A stretch of 29,092 bases of DNA from a virus: the IMG/VR virus record IMGVR_UViG_3300021197_001321, positions 1 to 29,092 of that record; one strand, written 5' to 3'. The notes below the pieces were generated by a model. It was not told the DNA's origin and ran no database searches. It saw nothing but the letters and a program-made list of their open reading frames with translations. Below, in pieces: positions 6,584 to 17,964 of this stretch; within the stretch, counting starts at the first letter, position 1; every line of letters begins with the position of its first letter. Both the position numbers and the translations under genes were made by a program.

Positions 6584-6855
6584 TGGCCCCCCCAAAACCA
6601 AAGTCTGCTAAAGAGGCACGGAGAAATAAAAAATTTGAAGAAATGGGCAAAGACAAAAAAACTTTAGAAGAGTTAGAAAAACAGTCTAAACGAAACGGGC
6701 CTGTTAAAAAAGATAAAAAGGAGGAACCAATGAAAAAACGATATGGCGGTAGCGTTAAAAAAATGGCTCGCGGCGGTAAAGTTAAGAAAATGGCCCGAGG
6801 TGGTAAGGTTAAGAAAATGGCTCGTGGCGGTATAGTCAAAGGGCCTTACAGTTAA
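6583..6855 (+). CDS. Lysine-rich repeat protein with an internal start (90 aa)
   Basis: Residues 1-49 form a charged, probably helical, disordered segment (KEARRNKKFEEMGKDKK...LEELEKQSKRN). Residues 50-90 form a separate module of three tandem nonapeptides VKKMARGG(K/I) ending in IVKGPYS. A strong ribosome-binding site (AAGGAGG, 6718-6724) and an in-frame ATG at 6730 lie exactly at the boundary, so a 41-aa short product, MKKRYGGSVKKMARGG..., can be made independently. The full-length start at 6583 has AAGGAGAG at 6571-6578. Short 'MKK...GG-K-VKKM' peptides are familiar as separate genes in marine phages, so this may be a fusion of two genes. Nucleic-acid binding is inferred from the charge. 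Confidence 0.7.
   Translation: MAPPKPKSAKEARRNKKFEEMGKDKKTLEELEKQSKRNGPVKKDKKEEPMKKRYGGSVKKMARGGKVKKMARGGKVKKMARGGIVKGPYS
6718..6732 (+). promoter_or_regulatory. Internal ribosome-binding site and in-frame start codon
   Basis: AAGGAGG at 6718-6724, five bases, then ATG at 6730-6732, all inside the reading frame that starts at 6583 (147 bases, 49 codons in). Within the long frame the same bases encode Lys-Glu-Glu-Pro-Met. The match to the anti-Shine-Dalgarno sequence is stronger than that of the upstream start, so the short C-terminal form may be the major product. Confidence 0.6.
6754..6834 (+). repeat. Three tandem 27-bp coding repeats
   Basis: Units 6754-6780, 6781-6807 and 6808-6834 each encode VKKMARGG plus Lys, Lys or Ile. 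Codons differ at synonymous positions (for example Arg as CGC, CGA, CGT), so the protein repeat is conserved while the DNA has drifted; this indicates selection on the peptide. Confidence 0.9.
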
Positions 6856-6865
6856 GGTGTAATTT

Positions 6866-7768
6866 ATGGCAGTTTCTGGTTCTAGTGATTTTGAGCTTGA
6901 TGTAGCTGAGTACGTCGAGGAAGCATTTGAAAGATGCGGCCTCGAAGTGCGTACAGGATACGACCTCACGAGTGCGCGTAGGTCTTTAAATTTATTGTTT
7001 GCTGATTGGGCTAATAGAGGTTTAAACAGGTGGACAATAGAGCAAGCTACTTTGCCTCTTGCATCAGGAATTGCTATTTACCCTGCCGGAACACTTACTA
7101 TGACAGTTGCGGCTAGTGGTTCTTTTTCAGTAGCAGAAACAATAACAGGGGGTACTAGCGGAGCTACAGCAAGTATTACAAGTATCCGCTCTACTACTGC
7201 TGTAGATATTACAATACCCGAAGGAACTTTTGTAGCAACGGAAACGATAACAGGTGCAACAAGTGGGGCAACCACCACCGTTTCCGCTGCTATTTCTTTA
7301 ACACCAATACAGTCAACTATTGATGTATTGTCTGCTGTTATTAGAACAGGAACAGGTTCAGGGCAAACAGATGTTGCTATAAGTAGAATTAGTAGAGATG
7401 CTTACATCAATATTGCTACTAAAAATAGCTCTTCTAGACCTACGCAATTTTATGTAGATAGGTTAATTACGCCTTCTATAAAATTGTGGCCTACTCCAGA
7501 CAATAATACTTACACATTAGTATATGATAAATTAACTAGAATAGATGATGTAGATAATCCACAAAATACGGTAGATGTACCTTTTAGGTTTTACCCATGT
7601 TTGTCTGCAGGATTAGCTTATTATATTTCTCTTAAACGCGCTCCACAACGAACTCAAATTTTAAAAGCAGTATATGAAGAAGAGTTTGAAAGAGCGGCAG
7701 CTGAAGATAGAGATAGAGCAAGTTTAAGTTTAACCCCTAGTCGCGACTACTATACGTTTATACGATGA
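6866..7768 (+). CDS. Head-tail adaptor (P22 gp4 / T7 gp11-like connector) with an inserted repeat domain
   Basis: The N-terminal region (residues 10-60) has the connector signature VEEAFERCGLEVRTGYDL, then ARRSLNLLFADWANRGLNRW and TIEQ. The second half continues with IDVLSAVIRTG, ISRDAYINIATKN, RPTQFYVDR, WPTPDNNTYTLVYDKL and a C-terminal helical part ending in DYYTFIR. In podoviruses this protein attaches as a 12-mer beneath the portal and seats the nozzle. Residues ~76-148 interrupt the core with two GxFxVxETITG(G/A)TSGAT repeats at 85-102 and 120-137; the same module occurs in the gene at 8064-8918. The stop overlaps the next start by ATGA (7765-7768). Confidence 0.8.
   Translation: MAVSGSSDFELDVAEYVEEAFERCGLEVRTGYDLTSARRSLNLLFADWANRGLNRWTIEQATLPLASGIAIYPAGTLTMTVAASGSFSVAETITGGTSGATASITSIRSTTAVDITIPEGTFVATETITGATSGATTTVSAAISLTPIQSTIDVLSAVIRTGTGSGQTDVAISRISRDAYINIATKNSSSRPTQFYVDRLITPSIKLWPTPDNNTYTLVYDKLTRIDDVDNPQNTVDVPFRFYPCLSAGLAYYISLKRAPQRTQILKAVYEEEFERAAAEDRDRASLSLTPSRDYYTFIR
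7091..7309 (+). repeat. Inserted GETITGGTSGAT-type module, copy in the first adaptor
   Basis: The segment encodes about 73 residues carrying two beta-hairpin-like repeats, ETITGGTSGATA and ETITGATSGATT, 35 residues apart. They are flanked by conserved connector sequence on both sides (ending ASGIAIYPAG, resuming TPIQSTIDVLSAV). Boundaries are approximate and set by where the connector pattern is broken. Confidence 0.7.
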
Positions 7769-8067
7769 AGTATGTATCTGGAAAATACGCAAAAGCAATT
7801 TGTGACCGTTGTGGGTTTGAGTACCCATACACTTCTTTGCAAAAAGAGTGGAACAATTTGAAAGTATGCCCTGAGTGTTTTGAAACTAAACACCCACAAT
7901 TAGAACCACCCCCACCCCCTTTTGAACCAGAGGCATTGTATGACCCTAGACCAGATAGGGCTGAAGGGTTAGATGTATTTGTTGGACAGGAAATATTCCC
8001 ACCTTTGAAAACTGCTTCCACACATGCAATTACTTCTGTTGGTAAAGTGGAGGTTGTTATTTCATGA
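7765..8067 (+). CDS. Small zinc-ribbon protein between the connector genes
   Basis: The 100-aa protein begins MKYVSGKYAKAICDRCGF and has two Cys pairs, CDRC at 13-16 and CPEC at 35-38. They are spaced as in a rubredoxin-like zinc ribbon and followed by FETKHPQL and a Pro-rich stretch, EPPPPPFEP. The C-terminal half looks disordered apart from a final beta-type segment. I recall this CDRCGFxY...CPECxExKHPQL family from phage neck regions, with no proven function. It is coupled by ATGA to both adaptor genes (7765-7768 and 8064-8067), so equimolar production with the connectors is likely. It may be a structural zinc-bound connector part or an assembly factor. Confidence 0.75.
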   Translation: MKYVSGKYAKAICDRCGFEYPYTSLQKEWNNLKVCPECFETKHPQLEPPPPPFEPEALYDPRPDRAEGLDVFVGQEIFPPLKTASTHAITSVGKVEVVIS

Positions 8068-8918
8068 GTTTTACATATACAACATTAAAAGAAACACTAC
8101 AGAACTATACTCAAAACACAGAAACAACATTTCTTAACTCTATGGATATGTTTATTCGTTTAGCAGAGGAACGAATATTAAAATCGACACAGTTAAATGT
8201 TTTTCAAAAAAATGTAACAGGAACTTTGTCTACAGGTAATGCGTACCTAGCTGTTCCTAGCGATTTTTTATCTCCGCATTCTTTGAGTATTACAAATAGT
8301 AGCTCTTATGAATATTTACAATTTAAAGAGTTAGAGTTTGTTCAGTCTTATAATCCTAATGCGGCAACAACAGGTGTACCTAAATATTACGGACAATTTG
8401 ATGTAAATTATTTTGTGTTAGCCCCTACACCGAATGCTACTTTTACTGCTAACTTGAGTTATTTTTACCGTCCCTCTAGTTTAACTTCAAGCCAATACCT
8501 TCTTAGCATGAACAATGTTTCTGGTACGTTTGTAGTAGGTGAAACAATAACAGGAGGCACGAGTGGGCAAAGCTCTACAATAGGTGTTGTAGAAACAAGC
8601 ACAAGCCTCACTGTTGGCATACCGAGCCAGAACTATACCGTTGGTGAAACGATAACAGGAGGTACGAGTGGGGCTACTGGTGTAATAACCTCTCTAGGAT
8701 CAGATACTACTAATAGTTGGTTGAGTGAAAATGCTGAAGTTGCTTTATTGTATGCTTCCCTTTCTGAGTGTTATCTTTTTATGAAAGGCGAACAAGATAT
8801 AATGACTATGTATAACCAAAGATATGGAGAAGCGATTAACCGTTTGAAAAATTTAGGTGAGGCATTAGAAGTTACTGATGATTATTCTGCGGGATATATA
8901 AAGAAAGATAGGACATAA
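8064..8918 (+). CDS. Second phage adaptor protein (SU10-adaptor-like) with the same inserted module
   Basis: The 284-aa product has the fold order I associate with SU10-type adaptors: an N-terminal helix (FLNSMDMFIRLAEERILKS), a beta core (TGNAYLAVPSDFLSPHSLSI, FVQSYNPN), a strand cluster (YFVLAPTPNATFTANLSYFY) with RPSSL, and a C-terminal helical part beginning SWLSENAEVALLYASL, with MKGEQDIMTMY and RLKNLGEALEV. Residues ~143-213 are an insertion with two GETITGGTSG repeats at 154-170 and 190-206. It probably forms the ring linking portal/adaptor to the nozzle. The ATGA overlap at the start and TAATG at the end tie it to its neighbours. Confidence 0.75.
   Translation: MSFTYTTLKETLQNYTQNTETTFLNSMDMFIRLAEERILKSTQLNVFQKNVTGTLSTGNAYLAVPSDFLSPHSLSITNSSSYEYLQFKELEFVQSYNPNAATTGVPKYYGQFDVNYFVLAPTPNATFTANLSYFYRPSSLTSSQYLLSMNNVSGTFVVGETITGGTSGQSSTIGVVETSTSLTVGIPSQNYTVGETITGGTSGATGVITSLGSDTTNSWLSENAEVALLYASLSECYLFMKGEQDIMTMYNQRYGEAINRLKNLGEALEVTDDYSAGYIKKDRT
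8490..8702 (+). repeat. Inserted GETITGGTSGAT-type module, copy in the second adaptor
   Basis: It encodes about 71 residues with VVGETITGGTSGQS and TVGETITGGTSGATG, 36 residues apart, nearly the same spacing as in the first adaptor. Conserved adaptor sequence resumes at TNSWLSENAE. At the DNA level the repeats share stretches such as GAAACGATAACAGG with the first adaptor's copy. Confidence 0.7.
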
Positions 8919-9671: not shown

Positions 9672-10136
9672 ATGGCCGATGCAGTTGTTCCATATCTAGG
9701 TTGGGGAAGCCTTAGTCAGGCTTGGAACACTGGAACGTGGAATACTGATACAAATTCAATCATACCTGTTGCAACAGGAGCTTTGTCTGCTCCTAGCATA
9801 ACAGGAGATGCAAATTTTACGATAACTACTACTGATATCGTAGGGACAGGATCAGTAGGAACAGCTTCTTTAACAGCCACGGCTACGATTACCGCTACAG
9901 GGGTTGCAGGTACAGGAGGATTATCTGCAGTTACTATAACAGGAGATGCAAATTTTACGATAACTACTACTGATATCGTTGGCACTGGAGCAGTTAACGG
10001 TGTTACCGTAACAGGAGACGGAAATGTTCCTATTGATGTTACTGGAGCCGCTGCTGTTGGTATTGTGGGAATAGGGTTTGTTTGGGGGTTAAATGTACCT
10101 GACCAAGATCCTAATTGGAAAGAAATTGCAGCATAA
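9672..10136 (+). CDS. Repeat-containing fibre-like protein (154 aa)
   Basis: It starts directly after the previous stop codon. The N-terminus is aromatic (GWGSLSQAWNTGTWNTD), and the middle contains an 18-residue unit beginning ITGDANFTITTTDIVGTG at residues 43-60 and 89-106, with a degenerate third copy, VTGDGNVPIDVTGAAAVG, at 113-130. The C-terminus is FVWGLNVPDQDPNW. The repeating beta-strand pattern suggests an elongated fibre or surface protein. The first two copies come from a perfect 44-bp DNA duplication. AAGGAG for the next gene overlaps its stop. Confidence 0.65.
   Translation: MADAVVPYLGWGSLSQAWNTGTWNTDTNSIIPVATGALSAPSITGDANFTITTTDIVGTGSVGTASLTATATITATGVAGTGGLSAVTITGDANFTITTTDIVGTGAVNGVTVTGDGNVPIDVTGAAAVGIVGIGFVWGLNVPDQDPNWKEIAA
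9798..9979 (+). repeat. Perfect 44-bp direct repeat, 138 bp apart, within one gene
   Basis: Positions 9798-9841 and 9936-9979 are identical over 44 bases and in the same reading frame (138 = 46 codons). Identity at every synonymous site indicates a recent duplication or gene conversion, unlike the older repeats elsewhere in the window. Confidence 0.9.
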
Positions 10137-11405: not shown

Positions 11406-12575
11406 ATGGCTAATAAAGGCGGTTTAATTGGCAATGATAACCTATTTGTACCTGATGCTCCAACTATAGGCGATGCGTCTACTGGTAATACTCAAGTATC
11501 AGTTGCATTTACTGCTCCTTCTGATGTTGGTAATGATGATATTACCAGTTTTGCGGCTAGAGTAACAGATGGAACAAATGTATTTAATGGTACTGCATCA
11601 TCTTCTCCTATAACCGTAACTGGTTTATCTAACGGCACAAGCTATACAGCACAGGTATGGGCAATTAATGATTATGGTAATGGCCCACTGTCTGCTGCTA
11701 CTTCTAGTTTTAGTCCTGTAGCACCAAGAGGATTATTTTTTGGAGGTCAGGGGCCAAGTTCAGACACAGATGTAAATGTTATTGATTTTATTACAATAAC
11801 TAGCACAGGTAATGCTCAAGATTTTGGTGATACTGGACAAACAGCTGCTTTTTCATATGCTGTTGGTAATGCTACTAGATCTGTTGTTGCAACAGGAAAA
11901 TATAATGGTAGCACATCAAACGTAATAGAATTTGTTACTCCAACATCAGCAGGTAATGCTTCTGACTTTGGTGATACTACTGTTGCTAGAGTGAAAGCGG
12001 CAGGAGCATCTAACTCAACAAGAGGTCTTTTTATGGCAGGAAATTCTAGTAACGTAATTGACTATATTACGATAGCATCCACTGGCAATGCTATCGATTT
12101 TGGTGATACTACAAGAAATGCAGGTGGTGCGGGTAGTGGTGCAAGTCCTACAAGAGCTATTCTAGCAGGAGGAGCGCCTTCTAGTAATGTTATTGAATAT
12201 GTTACCATTGCTTCTACAGGAAATGCACAAGATTTTGGAGATTTGGCTCAAGCTGCAGAAAGCATGGTTGGTTGTTCCTCTGATACAAGAGCTTTAGTTG
12301 GAATGGTTAATGGAAAAATAGAATCTATAACTATTGCCTCATTAGGCAATGCTGTAAATTTTGGTGAAACTCAATATGAAAATGTTTTAACATCACCATT
12401 TGCTTGTTCTTCAAATACTCGTGCAGTTTTTGCTGGAGGGAAAAGATCTAGTTATTTTAATAATATTGAATATTTTACCATAGCAAGTGCTAGTAATGGA
12501 ACAGACTTTGGTGATCTTACTGTAGCTAGAAATAGAGGGGCTGCTATTGGAACGGCACATGGAGGATTAGCATAA
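11406..12575 (+). CDS. Fibronectin-III plus six-repeat kelch-like (DFGDL) receptor-binding-type protein, paralogue 1
   Basis: Residues 16-104 form a fibronectin type III domain (PDAPTIGDASTGNTQVSVAF ... LSNGTSYTAQVWAINDYGNG). Residues 108-389 are six repeats at about 108-158, 159-206, 207-250, 251-295, 296-339 and 340-389. The consensus is (T/S)RGLFxGG - xxNVIDFVTIASTGNA - xDFGDLTxAR - xxAGxSSxTR. The Gly-Gly after a hydrophobic strand recalls kelch blades, so a six-bladed propeller is a reasonable model, though the kelch Tyr/Trp are absent. Propellers and FN3 domains on phage tails usually contact host surface glycans or proteins. The stop overlaps the next start (TAATG). Confidence 0.75.
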   Translation: MANKGGLIGNDNLFVPDAPTIGDASTGNTQVSVAFTAPSDVGNDDITSFAARVTDGTNVFNGTASSSPITVTGLSNGTSYTAQVWAINDYGNGPLSAATSSFSPVAPRGLFFGGQGPSSDTDVNVIDFITITSTGNAQDFGDTGQTAAFSYAVGNATRSVVATGKYNGSTSNVIEFVTPTSAGNASDFGDTTVARVKAAGASNSTRGLFMAGNSSNVIDYITIASTGNAIDFGDTTRNAGGAGSGASPTRAILAGGAPSSNVIEYVTIASTGNAQDFGDLAQAAESMVGCSSDTRALVGMVNGKIESITIASLGNAVNFGETQYENVLTSPFACSSNTRAVFAGGKRSSYFNNIEYFTIASASNGTDFGDLTVARNRGAAIGTAHGGLA

Positions 12576-13543
12576 TGGCTCCTTCATATTCAGGTGTTTG
12601 GAAATTAAATACTCAATATCAATACAGAAGTGATTGGCCTATAGACCCTGTTCTTGGCCCTAGAGGGTTTTTTGCAGGTGGATCAGCTGCTTCAGGTAGT
12701 ACTAATATTGTAGATTTTGTTTTAATGGCAACTAGTTCTTCAAATGGAACAGATTTTGGTGATTTAACAGCAACAAGAATTAAAGCAGGAGGTTTTTCCA
12801 ACCATACAAGAGGTCTTATAGGAGGAGGAGATGGTTCAGGAAATACTATTGATTTTATAGGTTTGACCACTGCGGGTAATGCTTCTGATTTTGGTGATTT
12901 TGCTAACTATTCTAGCTTTAGAGAAAGTTCTGCTGGATTTGCAAGTGCAACTAGGGGGGTATTTACAGGAGGTCTTGACAATACAGGTGGGGGAGGCGCG
13001 TCTCAAAACTACATGGATTTTGTTACTATAGCTTCTGCTGCAAATGCTACCGATTTTGGAAACTTAACTACTGCTGTTTCACAAGCAGCAGGATTTGCCA
13101 GTACAACAAGAGGAATAACGTCAGGGGGATATGAAACCTCTTCTTCCTCAAATGTTATGCAATTTGTTACGATAGCGTCAGCAGGAAATGCCTCAGATTT
13201 TGGAGACCTTACTGTTGCTAGGTTTGGCCTTGGTGGTTGTGCTAGTGCGACTAGAGGTTTAAGTGCGGGGGGAACCGGAGGAACAGATACAATTGACTTT
13301 GTGACTATCGCTAGTGCAGGAAATGCCTCAGATTTCGGAGACCTTTCAAAAGCATCTAGTAGTAATTCAGCCTGTGCCGATTCTACTAAAGCAGTAATAG
13401 CTACAGGTACAAATGCTTCTACCAATGCTCTAGATTCTAGAATTATTGCTTCTACAGGTAATGCTACCGATTTTGGAGACCTTACTGTAGCTAGAATATT
13501 TACCGTTGCTTTTTGCAATGGCGTACCTTCGGGAGCATCATAA
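12575..13543 (+). CDS. Six-repeat kelch-like (DFGDL) receptor-binding-type protein, paralogue 2
   Basis: A short N-terminal segment contains SGVWKLNTQYQYRSDWP (residues 6-22), a GVWxLxxQ...DWP motif seen near the ends of several phage tail proteins. It is followed by six repeats at about 30-79, 80-127, 128-179, 180-227, 228-272 and 273-322, each with RG(F/L/V)xxGG and NA(S/T)DFG(D/N)L. There is no FN3 domain, unlike paralogue 1. Repeat lengths are 45-52 residues, the fifth the shortest at 45, as in the other two paralogues. GGAGG at 12561-12565 is the ribosome-binding site, and TAATG overlaps occur at both ends. Function is inferred to be host recognition. Confidence 0.75.
   Translation: MAPSYSGVWKLNTQYQYRSDWPIDPVLGPRGFFAGGSAASGSTNIVDFVLMATSSSNGTDFGDLTATRIKAGGFSNHTRGLIGGGDGSGNTIDFIGLTTAGNASDFGDFANYSSFRESSAGFASATRGVFTGGLDNTGGGGASQNYMDFVTIASAANATDFGNLTTAVSQAAGFASTTRGITSGGYETSSSSNVMQFVTIASAGNASDFGDLTVARFGLGGCASATRGLSAGGTGGTDTIDFVTIASAGNASDFGDLSKASSSNSACADSTKAVIATGTNASTNALDSRIIASTGNATDFGDLTVARIFTVAFCNGVPSGAS
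13181..13345 (+). repeat. Near-identical 30-bp coding repeats within paralogue 2
   Basis: Positions 13181-13210 and 13316-13345 differ at a single base (TTT/TTC for Phe in DFG) and are 135 bp, one 45-codon repeat, apart. Most other repeats in the three paralogues are much more diverged at the DNA level, so these two blades may have exchanged sequence recently. Confidence 0.8.
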
Positions 13544-16038: not shown

Positions 16039-17964
16039 ATGCCATTGACCAAGCTAACTTTTCGTCCTGGAATCAATAAAGAAACAACTTCTTACAGTAA
16101 TGAAGGTGGTTGGTTTGACGCAGATAAAGTGCGTTTTAGAGCAGGATATCCTGAAAAAATAGGTGGTTGGTTAAAAAGAAGCACAGATGCTTTTTTAGGT
16201 TCGGGAAGAGCATTACATAATTGGGTAGCGTTAGATAATTCTAGGTTTATAGGGATAGGTACTCATTTAAAATATTATGTTTTACTAGGTGGTAGTTTTT
16301 TTGATTTAACACCTATTCGCTCTACTGTTACAGGAGAGGCTACTTTTGCAGCTACTGATGGTTCGTCTGTAATAACTGTTACAGACACTAATCATGGAGC
16401 TGTTTTAAATGATTTTGTTACGTTTACCTCTGCGGCTTCTTTGGGGGGAAATATTACGGCAGCGGTGTTGAATCAAGAATACCAAATAACCTCTGTTCCT
16501 TCTGTTTCTACTTACACAATACAAGCTAGAACAGCAGGAACTTCTATACAATCTATTACAACAACAAGTGGTTTAAACCCTAGTCTTGTTACTGCTAATA
16601 GCAGTGATTCAGGTAATGGTGGGGGGTCTACTGTCGCCGCATATCAATTAAACATTGGTTTAGATGTAGCTGTTCCAGGAACAGGATGGAATGCAGGGGC
16701 GTATGGAAGAGGTACATGGAACTCAGATGCAGATACTGCGATAAGTGTTAATAACCTGCGAATATGGACACATGATAATTTTGGGGAAGACCTGTTAATA
16801 AATATAAGAGATGGGCAAATTGCTTATTGGGATAAATCAGGAGGAACAAACAATAGAGCAGTTTTATTGAATAGTTTATCTGGTTCTACTTCAGCTCCTA
16901 CTATTGCTAAACAGGTTTTAGTTTCAGATGTAGATAGACATGTTATTGCATTTGGATGTGATTCTGCTGATGACATTGGTACACAAGATCCTTTGCTTAT
17001 TCGTTTTGCAGACCAAGGAAGTTTAACAGATTGGGCTTCTACTGCGACAAATACAGCAGGAGATTTAAAACTAGGTGTTGGTTCTGAAATTATAACTGCG
17101 GTTGAAACTAGACAACAGATTCTTGTGTTTACAGACACTAGTATACATGCAATGCAGTTTATAGGTCCTCCGTTTACTTTTGGGTTAAGTACAGTAGCTG
17201 ATAATACAACTATTGCAGGACCATTAGCAGTAACTTCTGTGCAAGATACTGTTTTTTGGATGGGTAAAAATGAGTTTTATATGTATACAGGACAAGTGCA
17301 AAGAATGCCTTGTTCTGTGAGAGACCATGTTTTTTCTGATTTAAATTGGGAACAAGGCAGGAAAATAGTTTCTGGTTTAAACTCTTCGTTTGCCGAAATA
17401 TGGTGGTTTTACCCTTCTTTATCTAGTATAGAAAATGATAAATATGTTGTGTATAATTACGAACAACAGGTTTGGTATATCGGATCTTTAGCTAGAACAG
17501 CTTGGATGGATAGAGGAATAGAAGCTTATCCTATAAGTGTGGGAACAGATCATTATATATATGACCATGAAAACGGATTTGATGATGGAAGCACTGTTCC
17601 TTCTTCTGCTATATCTTCTTACATTGAATCTAGTCAGTTTGATATAGGTGATGGTGACCAGTTTACTTTTATACAGCGTTTGATTCCTGATATTACTTTT
17701 AGAAACTCTACAAATACTTCGCCTTCTGCTTCTTTTACTTTGCAAACTAGGGAAGGTCCTGGAAGCCCATATGCACAAAACAACCCCAAAACGATTACAC
17801 AAACCGTTGCAGAAACCACCACTACGGTAGAGCAGTTTACAGATTTAGTGCATGTGCGTTTAAGAGGCAGGTCTTTTGCGTTAAAAGTATCGTCTTCTGT
17901 TGCAGAAGCAGGATGGAGGTTAGGTTCTCCTAGGGTAGATGTAAGACCAGATGGTCGTAGATAA
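16039..17964 (+). CDS. Tail nozzle-like protein (P22 gp10 / T7 gp12-type short-tail component)
   Basis: The 641-aa product shows the pattern I associate with nozzle proteins: an N-terminal FRPGINKETTSYSNEGGWFD with KVRFRAGYPEKIGGW, then long beta-rich segments suggestive of a propeller (DRHVIAFGCDSADDIGTQDP, LVFTDTSIHAMQFIGPP, VFWMGKNEFYMYTGQVQRMP). A late part has VVYNYEQQVWYIGSLARTAW and SYIESSQFDIGDGDQF. In P22 and T7 a hexamer of this protein forms the end of the short tail below the adaptor. Residues ~100-190 (TFAATDGSSVITVTDTNHGA) look like an extra beta insertion. The stop overlaps the next start (TAATG). Confidence 0.7.
   Translation: MPLTKLTFRPGINKETTSYSNEGGWFDADKVRFRAGYPEKIGGWLKRSTDAFLGSGRALHNWVALDNSRFIGIGTHLKYYVLLGGSFFDLTPIRSTVTGEATFAATDGSSVITVTDTNHGAVLNDFVTFTSAASLGGNITAAVLNQEYQITSVPSVSTYTIQARTAGTSIQSITTTSGLNPSLVTANSSDSGNGGGSTVAAYQLNIGLDVAVPGTGWNAGAYGRGTWNSDADTAISVNNLRIWTHDNFGEDLLINIRDGQIAYWDKSGGTNNRAVLLNSLSGSTSAPTIAKQVLVSDVDRHVIAFGCDSADDIGTQDPLLIRFADQGSLTDWASTATNTAGDLKLGVGSEIITAVETRQQILVFTDTSIHAMQFIGPPFTFGLSTVADNTTIAGPLAVTSVQDTVFWMGKNEFYMYTGQVQRMPCSVRDHVFSDLNWEQGRKIVSGLNSSFAEIWWFYPSLSSIENDKYVVYNYEQQVWYIGSLARTAWMDRGIEAYPISVGTDHYIYDHENGFDDGSTVPSSAISSYIESSQFDIGDGDQFTFIQRLIPDITFRNSTNTSPSASFTLQTREGPGSPYAQNNPKTITQTVAETTTTVEQFTDLVHVRLRGRSFALKVSSSVAEAGWRLGSPRVDVRPDGRR

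Follow-up and report, generated by a model that had tools for sequence, protein, structure and literature searches.

A homologous two-repeat insert in both SU10-family adaptor proteins of an uncultured marine phage

Two closely spaced genes of an uncultured marine phage encode structural proteins that are each interrupted by a similar segment of about 70 residues, which raises the question of how one segment came to stand in both proteins and what it does there. A preliminary description had taken the two for a gp4-like and an SU10-like adaptor with unrelated cores and an identical decoration, and had proposed either a docking surface shared by two stacked rings or a mobile coding module. The window, i.e., the whole stretch of DNA analyzed here, is the entire IMG/VR record IMGVR_UViG_3300021197_001321 (29,092 bases), and is probably a genome fragment, as both of its ends cut through reading frames. 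It encodes a holin, an endolysin, a GroES-like co-chaperonin and a major head protein, followed by the two proteins in question, designated A (300 aa; positions 6866–7768, plus strand) and B (284 aa; 8064–8918, plus strand), and later by a nozzle protein. The closest cultured phages are DSL-LC04, the Roseobacter phages CRP-901 and CRP-902, and the Pelagibacter phages HTVC023P and HTVC027P, which have kept the gene order of capsid, small genes, adaptor A, small protein and adaptor B. In the window the small protein between the adaptors is a CxxC protein (7765–8067, plus strand; phrog_28581) that is syntenic in the cultured relatives and lacks the module here.

Several other features of the neighborhood were recorded. 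The co-chaperonin gene (1564–2055; phrog_3188, 2.4e-19) adjoins the head genes, and the small basic protein encoded immediately before adaptor A has C-terminal KKMARGGKV repeats, specified by a 27-nt tandem repeat at 6745–6836. A small protein at 9672–10136 contains internal repeats with VGTGxxG/VAGTGAxG strings, as does CRP-901 gp53 (L295, 3181–4125), which lies between the adaptors in that phage; both are possible cases of further repeat decoration. Two neighboring proteins at 11406–13543 are made of TRGLFAGG..NVIDFVTIASTGNASDFGDL-like repeats, which hints at a repeat or propeller-like fold.

Both cores belong to a single adaptor family. Proteins A and B matched the Pfam SU10_adaptor model (PF24175) with 35.9 bits (1.4e-8) and 76.2 bits (6.1e-21), respectively, against a curated cut-off of 27 bits. 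Relatives of A that lack the insert scored mostly 48–62 bits (1e-12 to 1e-17) and an insert-free relative of B scored 94.6 bits, and these proteins cover most of the profile length; the exception is one relative of A (L067), which had no match. A profile of the B family retrieved the SU10 adaptor 7z47 (1.3e-8), and Foldseek matched the model of A to the portal-tail chains of cyanophage A4, Pa223, VP1 and GP4 and that of B to 8zkk_B, 9nwi_A and 7z47. In addition, the homolog of A in DSL-LC04 is annotated as “Pam1 adaptor protein.” DSSP assignment of both models gave a helix pair, a beta dock domain and a second helix pair, in agreement with the two helices, beta domain and two C-terminal helices of SU10 gp11/T7 gp11-type adaptors (PF24175; 7z47, 8zkk, 9nwi, 9k09, 8jov). 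The present system differs from these in having two adaptor genes per genome, as annotated in DSL-LC04 too, and in that both adaptors are interrupted by the module, which is absent from the insert-free relatives aligned. SU10_adaptor is the sole family that Pfam reports for A, the P22 gp4-type family being unmatched, and the gp4-like assignment was consequently abandoned. Neither pairwise nor profile comparison detected significant similarity between the A and B cores, and this divergence explains why they had been described as unrelated, a view that the Pfam and fold searches rule out. The cores of A and B are old relatives with a common fold that have strongly diverged.

The inserted segments themselves are readily aligned. 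Each protein contains two ETITG[GA]TSG motifs: ETITGGTSG at 7136–7162 and ETITGATSG at 7241–7267 in A, and ETITGGTSG at both 8541–8567 and 8646–8672 in B (all on the plus strand). The two repeats per protein had been noted before with a spacing of 35–36 residues; the spacing is exactly 35 in both, and the second repeat of A carries Ala in place of the second Gly of the pair. Over an alignment of 58 aa the two segments are 47% identical (E 2e-13), with an alignment z of 13 against 20,000 composition shuffles, so that low-complexity make-up is not the explanation of their similarity. The four repeats are mutually about 40–50% alike, and at the DNA level the motif copies are about 62–91% identical, indicating that they are not recent exact copies. 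Judged by these comparisons the decorations of A and B are homologous, and the same two-repeat module does occur in both proteins as first described, though at 47% identity it is not an identical one.

Because homologs without the segment exist for both proteins, the edges of the inserts could be fixed. The insert in A spans about residues 73–148 (7082–7309, plus strand), where insert-free relatives have 3–9 residues, and that in B spans about residues 143–211/216 (8490 to 8696/8711, plus strand), where 2–5 residues are found instead; the lengths obtained from homolog comparison are 76 residues in A and 74 in B, the net gain in B being 69–70 residues. The original estimates of about 7091–7309 and 8490–8702 were thus accurate to within a few residues. 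In the closest pair of contigs with and without the B insert (L104, 4001–4855; L115, 4001–4648), the difference is one in-frame gap of 207 nt, and DNA identity falls from above 90% to about 75–80% around the insert site and rises again downstream. A blastn comparison of the pair (89% before, 76% after) might place a recombination breakpoint right at the edge of the insert, but this was dismissed, since the identity profile displayed a divergent patch on both sides; this one pair suggests local allele exchange at the B site.

AlphaFold2 models predicted six strands for each insert, with pLDDT values of 92–94 over most of the A insert and 89–94 over most of the B insert. In the models, the insert of A follows the first beta-domain strand, in an early hairpin, and that of B lies between the last beta-domain strand and the C-terminal helices, at the exit of the domain. 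The two inserts are thereby modeled at different sites of the same adaptor fold, in or beside the beta (fiber-dock) domain. No family model in Pfam or NCBIfam described the module. Among 29 modules compared with these two databases, none matched an Ig or Big family above the cut-off, the best being Big_11 (E 0.36, 1 of 29). Weak matches to PilE (PilE_C, 1.3e-5 in 7 of 29 modules), to the T5 tail tube (E 0.78) and to designed WRAP-T proteins, considered as a solved structure of the module, were judged likely to reflect low complexity or chance. The motif string was absent from the literature searched.

A strict motif pattern, run over all six frames of the window, returned the two B copies only and no third carrier; it missed the A copies, where the first G is replaced by A or T. 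The nozzle protein of this genome (641 aa; 16039–17964, plus strand), identified by phmmer matches to the VP1 nozzle 8zkk_O (5e-8) and Pa223 9nwi_Y (1.4e-9), is without the module. In the nozzles of two sister contigs (L170 and L209), however, the module follows residue 175 and occupies 76 residues in place of 3 in the window's nozzle, and L170 carries it in A, B and nozzle alike. In viral sequences a degenerate DNA pattern matched at least 120 stretches. Among the matches listed, 126 reading frames bear the module; they form 24 clusters, some of which are fragments or divergent A/B proteins. The survey is a lower bound, as the pattern catches one form of the module only. The cluster representatives of this pattern survey fell into over a dozen PHROG families, some of which have no adaptor match; among the families are the Ad2 adaptor (phrog_211), a T4-like neck protein (phrog_460 with PF11649), baseplate wedge proteins (phrog_3465 with PF23786, phrog_438 and phrog_232), a tail fiber (phrog_9851), a tail protein (phrog_376), an amidase (phrog_5107), and phrog_358, phrog_1645 and phrog_8270. 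Homologous two-repeat modules are already present inside the alignments of phrog_460/PF11649, phrog_9851, phrog_3465/PF23786 and other PHROG carriers; the PHROG carriers are filed under the host protein, and the module is unnamed in Pfam, NCBIfam and PHROGs as far as these were searched. Across carriers from unrelated families the key positions of F..GE.ITG..SGA are conserved, partly as a result of the search pattern.

Against the viral count of at least 120, the same pattern matched 12 times in prokaryote genomes totaling 257 Gb, and the module is therefore enriched in viral contigs. These 12 exact matches, among them L280, L282 and L284 (Mesorhizobium), may represent prophages, binned phages or chance. 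Module queries against cultured phages returned only a “neck protein” of Synechococcus phage MS29/S-MS29 (E 1e-3).

The distribution of the module was examined in 100 distinct lineages, which comprised 36 with the module in A only, 31 with it in neither adaptor, 22 with it in both and 11 with it in B only; the sample was picked by similarity to the window's proteins, and the counts are hence not population frequencies. Forty-seven lineages thus bear the module on a single adaptor. Presence at the A site was not significantly associated with presence at the B site in these lineages (Fisher p = 0.28), nor did A and B modules resemble each other more within a genome than between genomes (p = 0.90); gene conversion between the two modules within a genome left no signal. 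Phylogenetically independent contrasts (5 and 4 pairs) lean towards joint change and are too few to test a weak link. In single-core trees at least six state changes are needed per site, strongly supported branches alone forcing at least two at A and at least four at B, and the concatenated tree calls for eight changes at A and seven at B. The module tree, which is short (75 columns) and weak, groups the A inserts as one clade (SH-aLRT 98). Several independent gains at B, which this tree had suggested, were discarded in favor of a single B clade, which was not rejected (AU p = 0.83) and fits better. Given the A clade and the unrejected B clade, each site may have been filled once, the module being lost or exchanged thereafter, and it may have moved between genes rarely and long ago. 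The proposal of a mobile coding module is supported by its absence in close relatives, its separate presence in A and B, the sister nozzles and the range of PHROG families.

The A site has also received a different insert. In HTVC027P (L292, 2501–3439) it holds an unrelated segment of the form ..NDEIITYTG..LTGxTRGxNGT..H.., which is related to nozzle segments of CRP-901 (L294) and HTVC023P (L293), with z values of 13.8 and 14.4. This second module shares the A site and its host proteins with the GETITG module, yet the two cannot be aligned: z is about 0 to 2.2 for copies from the A site and the nozzles. The cultured phages CRP-901 and DSL-LC04 have no insert in A. Since two unrelated modules have been found there, the A site looks like an insertion hotspot in a permissive loop. 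A weaker copy of the second module may lie in HTVC027P gp65 (z about 4–7).

What, then, is the module for? In relatives with solved structures, tail fibers dock on the adaptor beta domain and sit between the adaptor and nozzle docks (PMC9509320, PMC6702177), and the T7 nozzle supplies the second half of the fiber socket (PMC6702177). With the A and B inserts placed in or beside the beta domain, and the nozzle as a third carrier, we infer a dressing of the outer tail surface near the fiber socket. We regard it as probable that the module is a promiscuous accessory surface module on proteins that border this socket, foreign to the adaptor fold and employed in the manner of an Ig-like domain. An in-frame beta module of about 70 residues and two repeats would sit in a different beta-domain loop of each adaptor, having presumably spread among phage structural genes as an accessory domain, and phage–phage recombination would add, remove or exchange it at A, B or the nozzle regardless of the other sites. 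Many copies would surround each ring, 12 if the rings are dodecamers as in SU10, most likely protruding from the outer tail surface by the fiber socket, where they could bind weakly and multivalently, either to the host surface or glycans or to the fiber base. By analogy, weak multivalent contact with the host is the most likely role; alternatively, the module may help to seat the fibers. Ig-like domains are small beta domains found in many structural protein classes of tailed phages and are thought to aid host adhesion (PMC7602432); the module likewise occurs in several unrelated structural protein classes and may work like one, but it has no Ig/Big match above the cut-off and consists of two 35-residue F..GE.ITG repeats.

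Three other readings were weighed against this accessory-module interpretation. The modules on both adaptor rings, together with that on the nozzle, might form a matched docking surface that jointly anchors a whisker or fiber and is needed as a set; the carriers do border the fiber socket in solved relatives, and L170 has all three modules, but the 47 single-adaptor lineages, the lack of association and of within-genome resemblance, and the window's own module-free nozzle make this unlikely. The shared surface on two stacked rings is not supported as originally put; a looser docking version survives, in that the A and B sites border the fiber-dock beta domain and the nozzle is a third carrier. 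If the insert were a neutral spacer or assembly filler, tolerated in exposed loops and spread by recombination with no selected binding role, its low-complexity G/S/T/A make-up, its repeated loss and the toleration of two unrelated module types at the A site would be expected. Conservation of F..GE.ITG..SGA across unrelated families (again, partly by search pattern) and the high-confidence AlphaFold2 models instead suggest selection on a fold, and we consider the neutral reading improbable.

The third reading makes the segment original to the adaptor beta domain, with losses in some lineages and no kinship to the other carriers; it would agree with the single clade of A inserts and with a single origin per site, which was not rejected. 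Against it, the insert sites differ between A and B, insert-free relatives match the SU10 adaptor profile across the empty site, the cultured CRP-901 and DSL-LC04 have no A insert, and the same module resides in families without an adaptor match. The segment was looked for as an ancestral part of both folds and was not found to be one; the other carriers and the empty sites largely refute this explanation, which we deem highly improbable.

Accessory beta domains of phages are already known; here one unnamed module is seen in two places of the portal-tail adaptor fold and in one of the nozzle. It is conceivable, as a tentative extension, that marine phages hold a pool of interchangeable small beta cassettes of at least two unrelated types, which would be inserted in frame, by recombination, at fixed hotspots in the genes for adaptor, nozzle, neck, baseplate and fiber in both podoviruses and myoviruses, such that the tail surface would be re-dressed independently of the receptor-binding fibers. 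For annotators, the finding is a warning: the module alone links adaptors, neck proteins, baseplate wedges and tail fibers in similarity searches (protein A matches “tail fiber” and “head closure” PHROGs through its insert alone), and function can be transferred wrongly along such links. The occurrence of present and absent alleles in close relatives, moreover, provides a clean natural comparison of one ring in its module-bearing and module-free forms.
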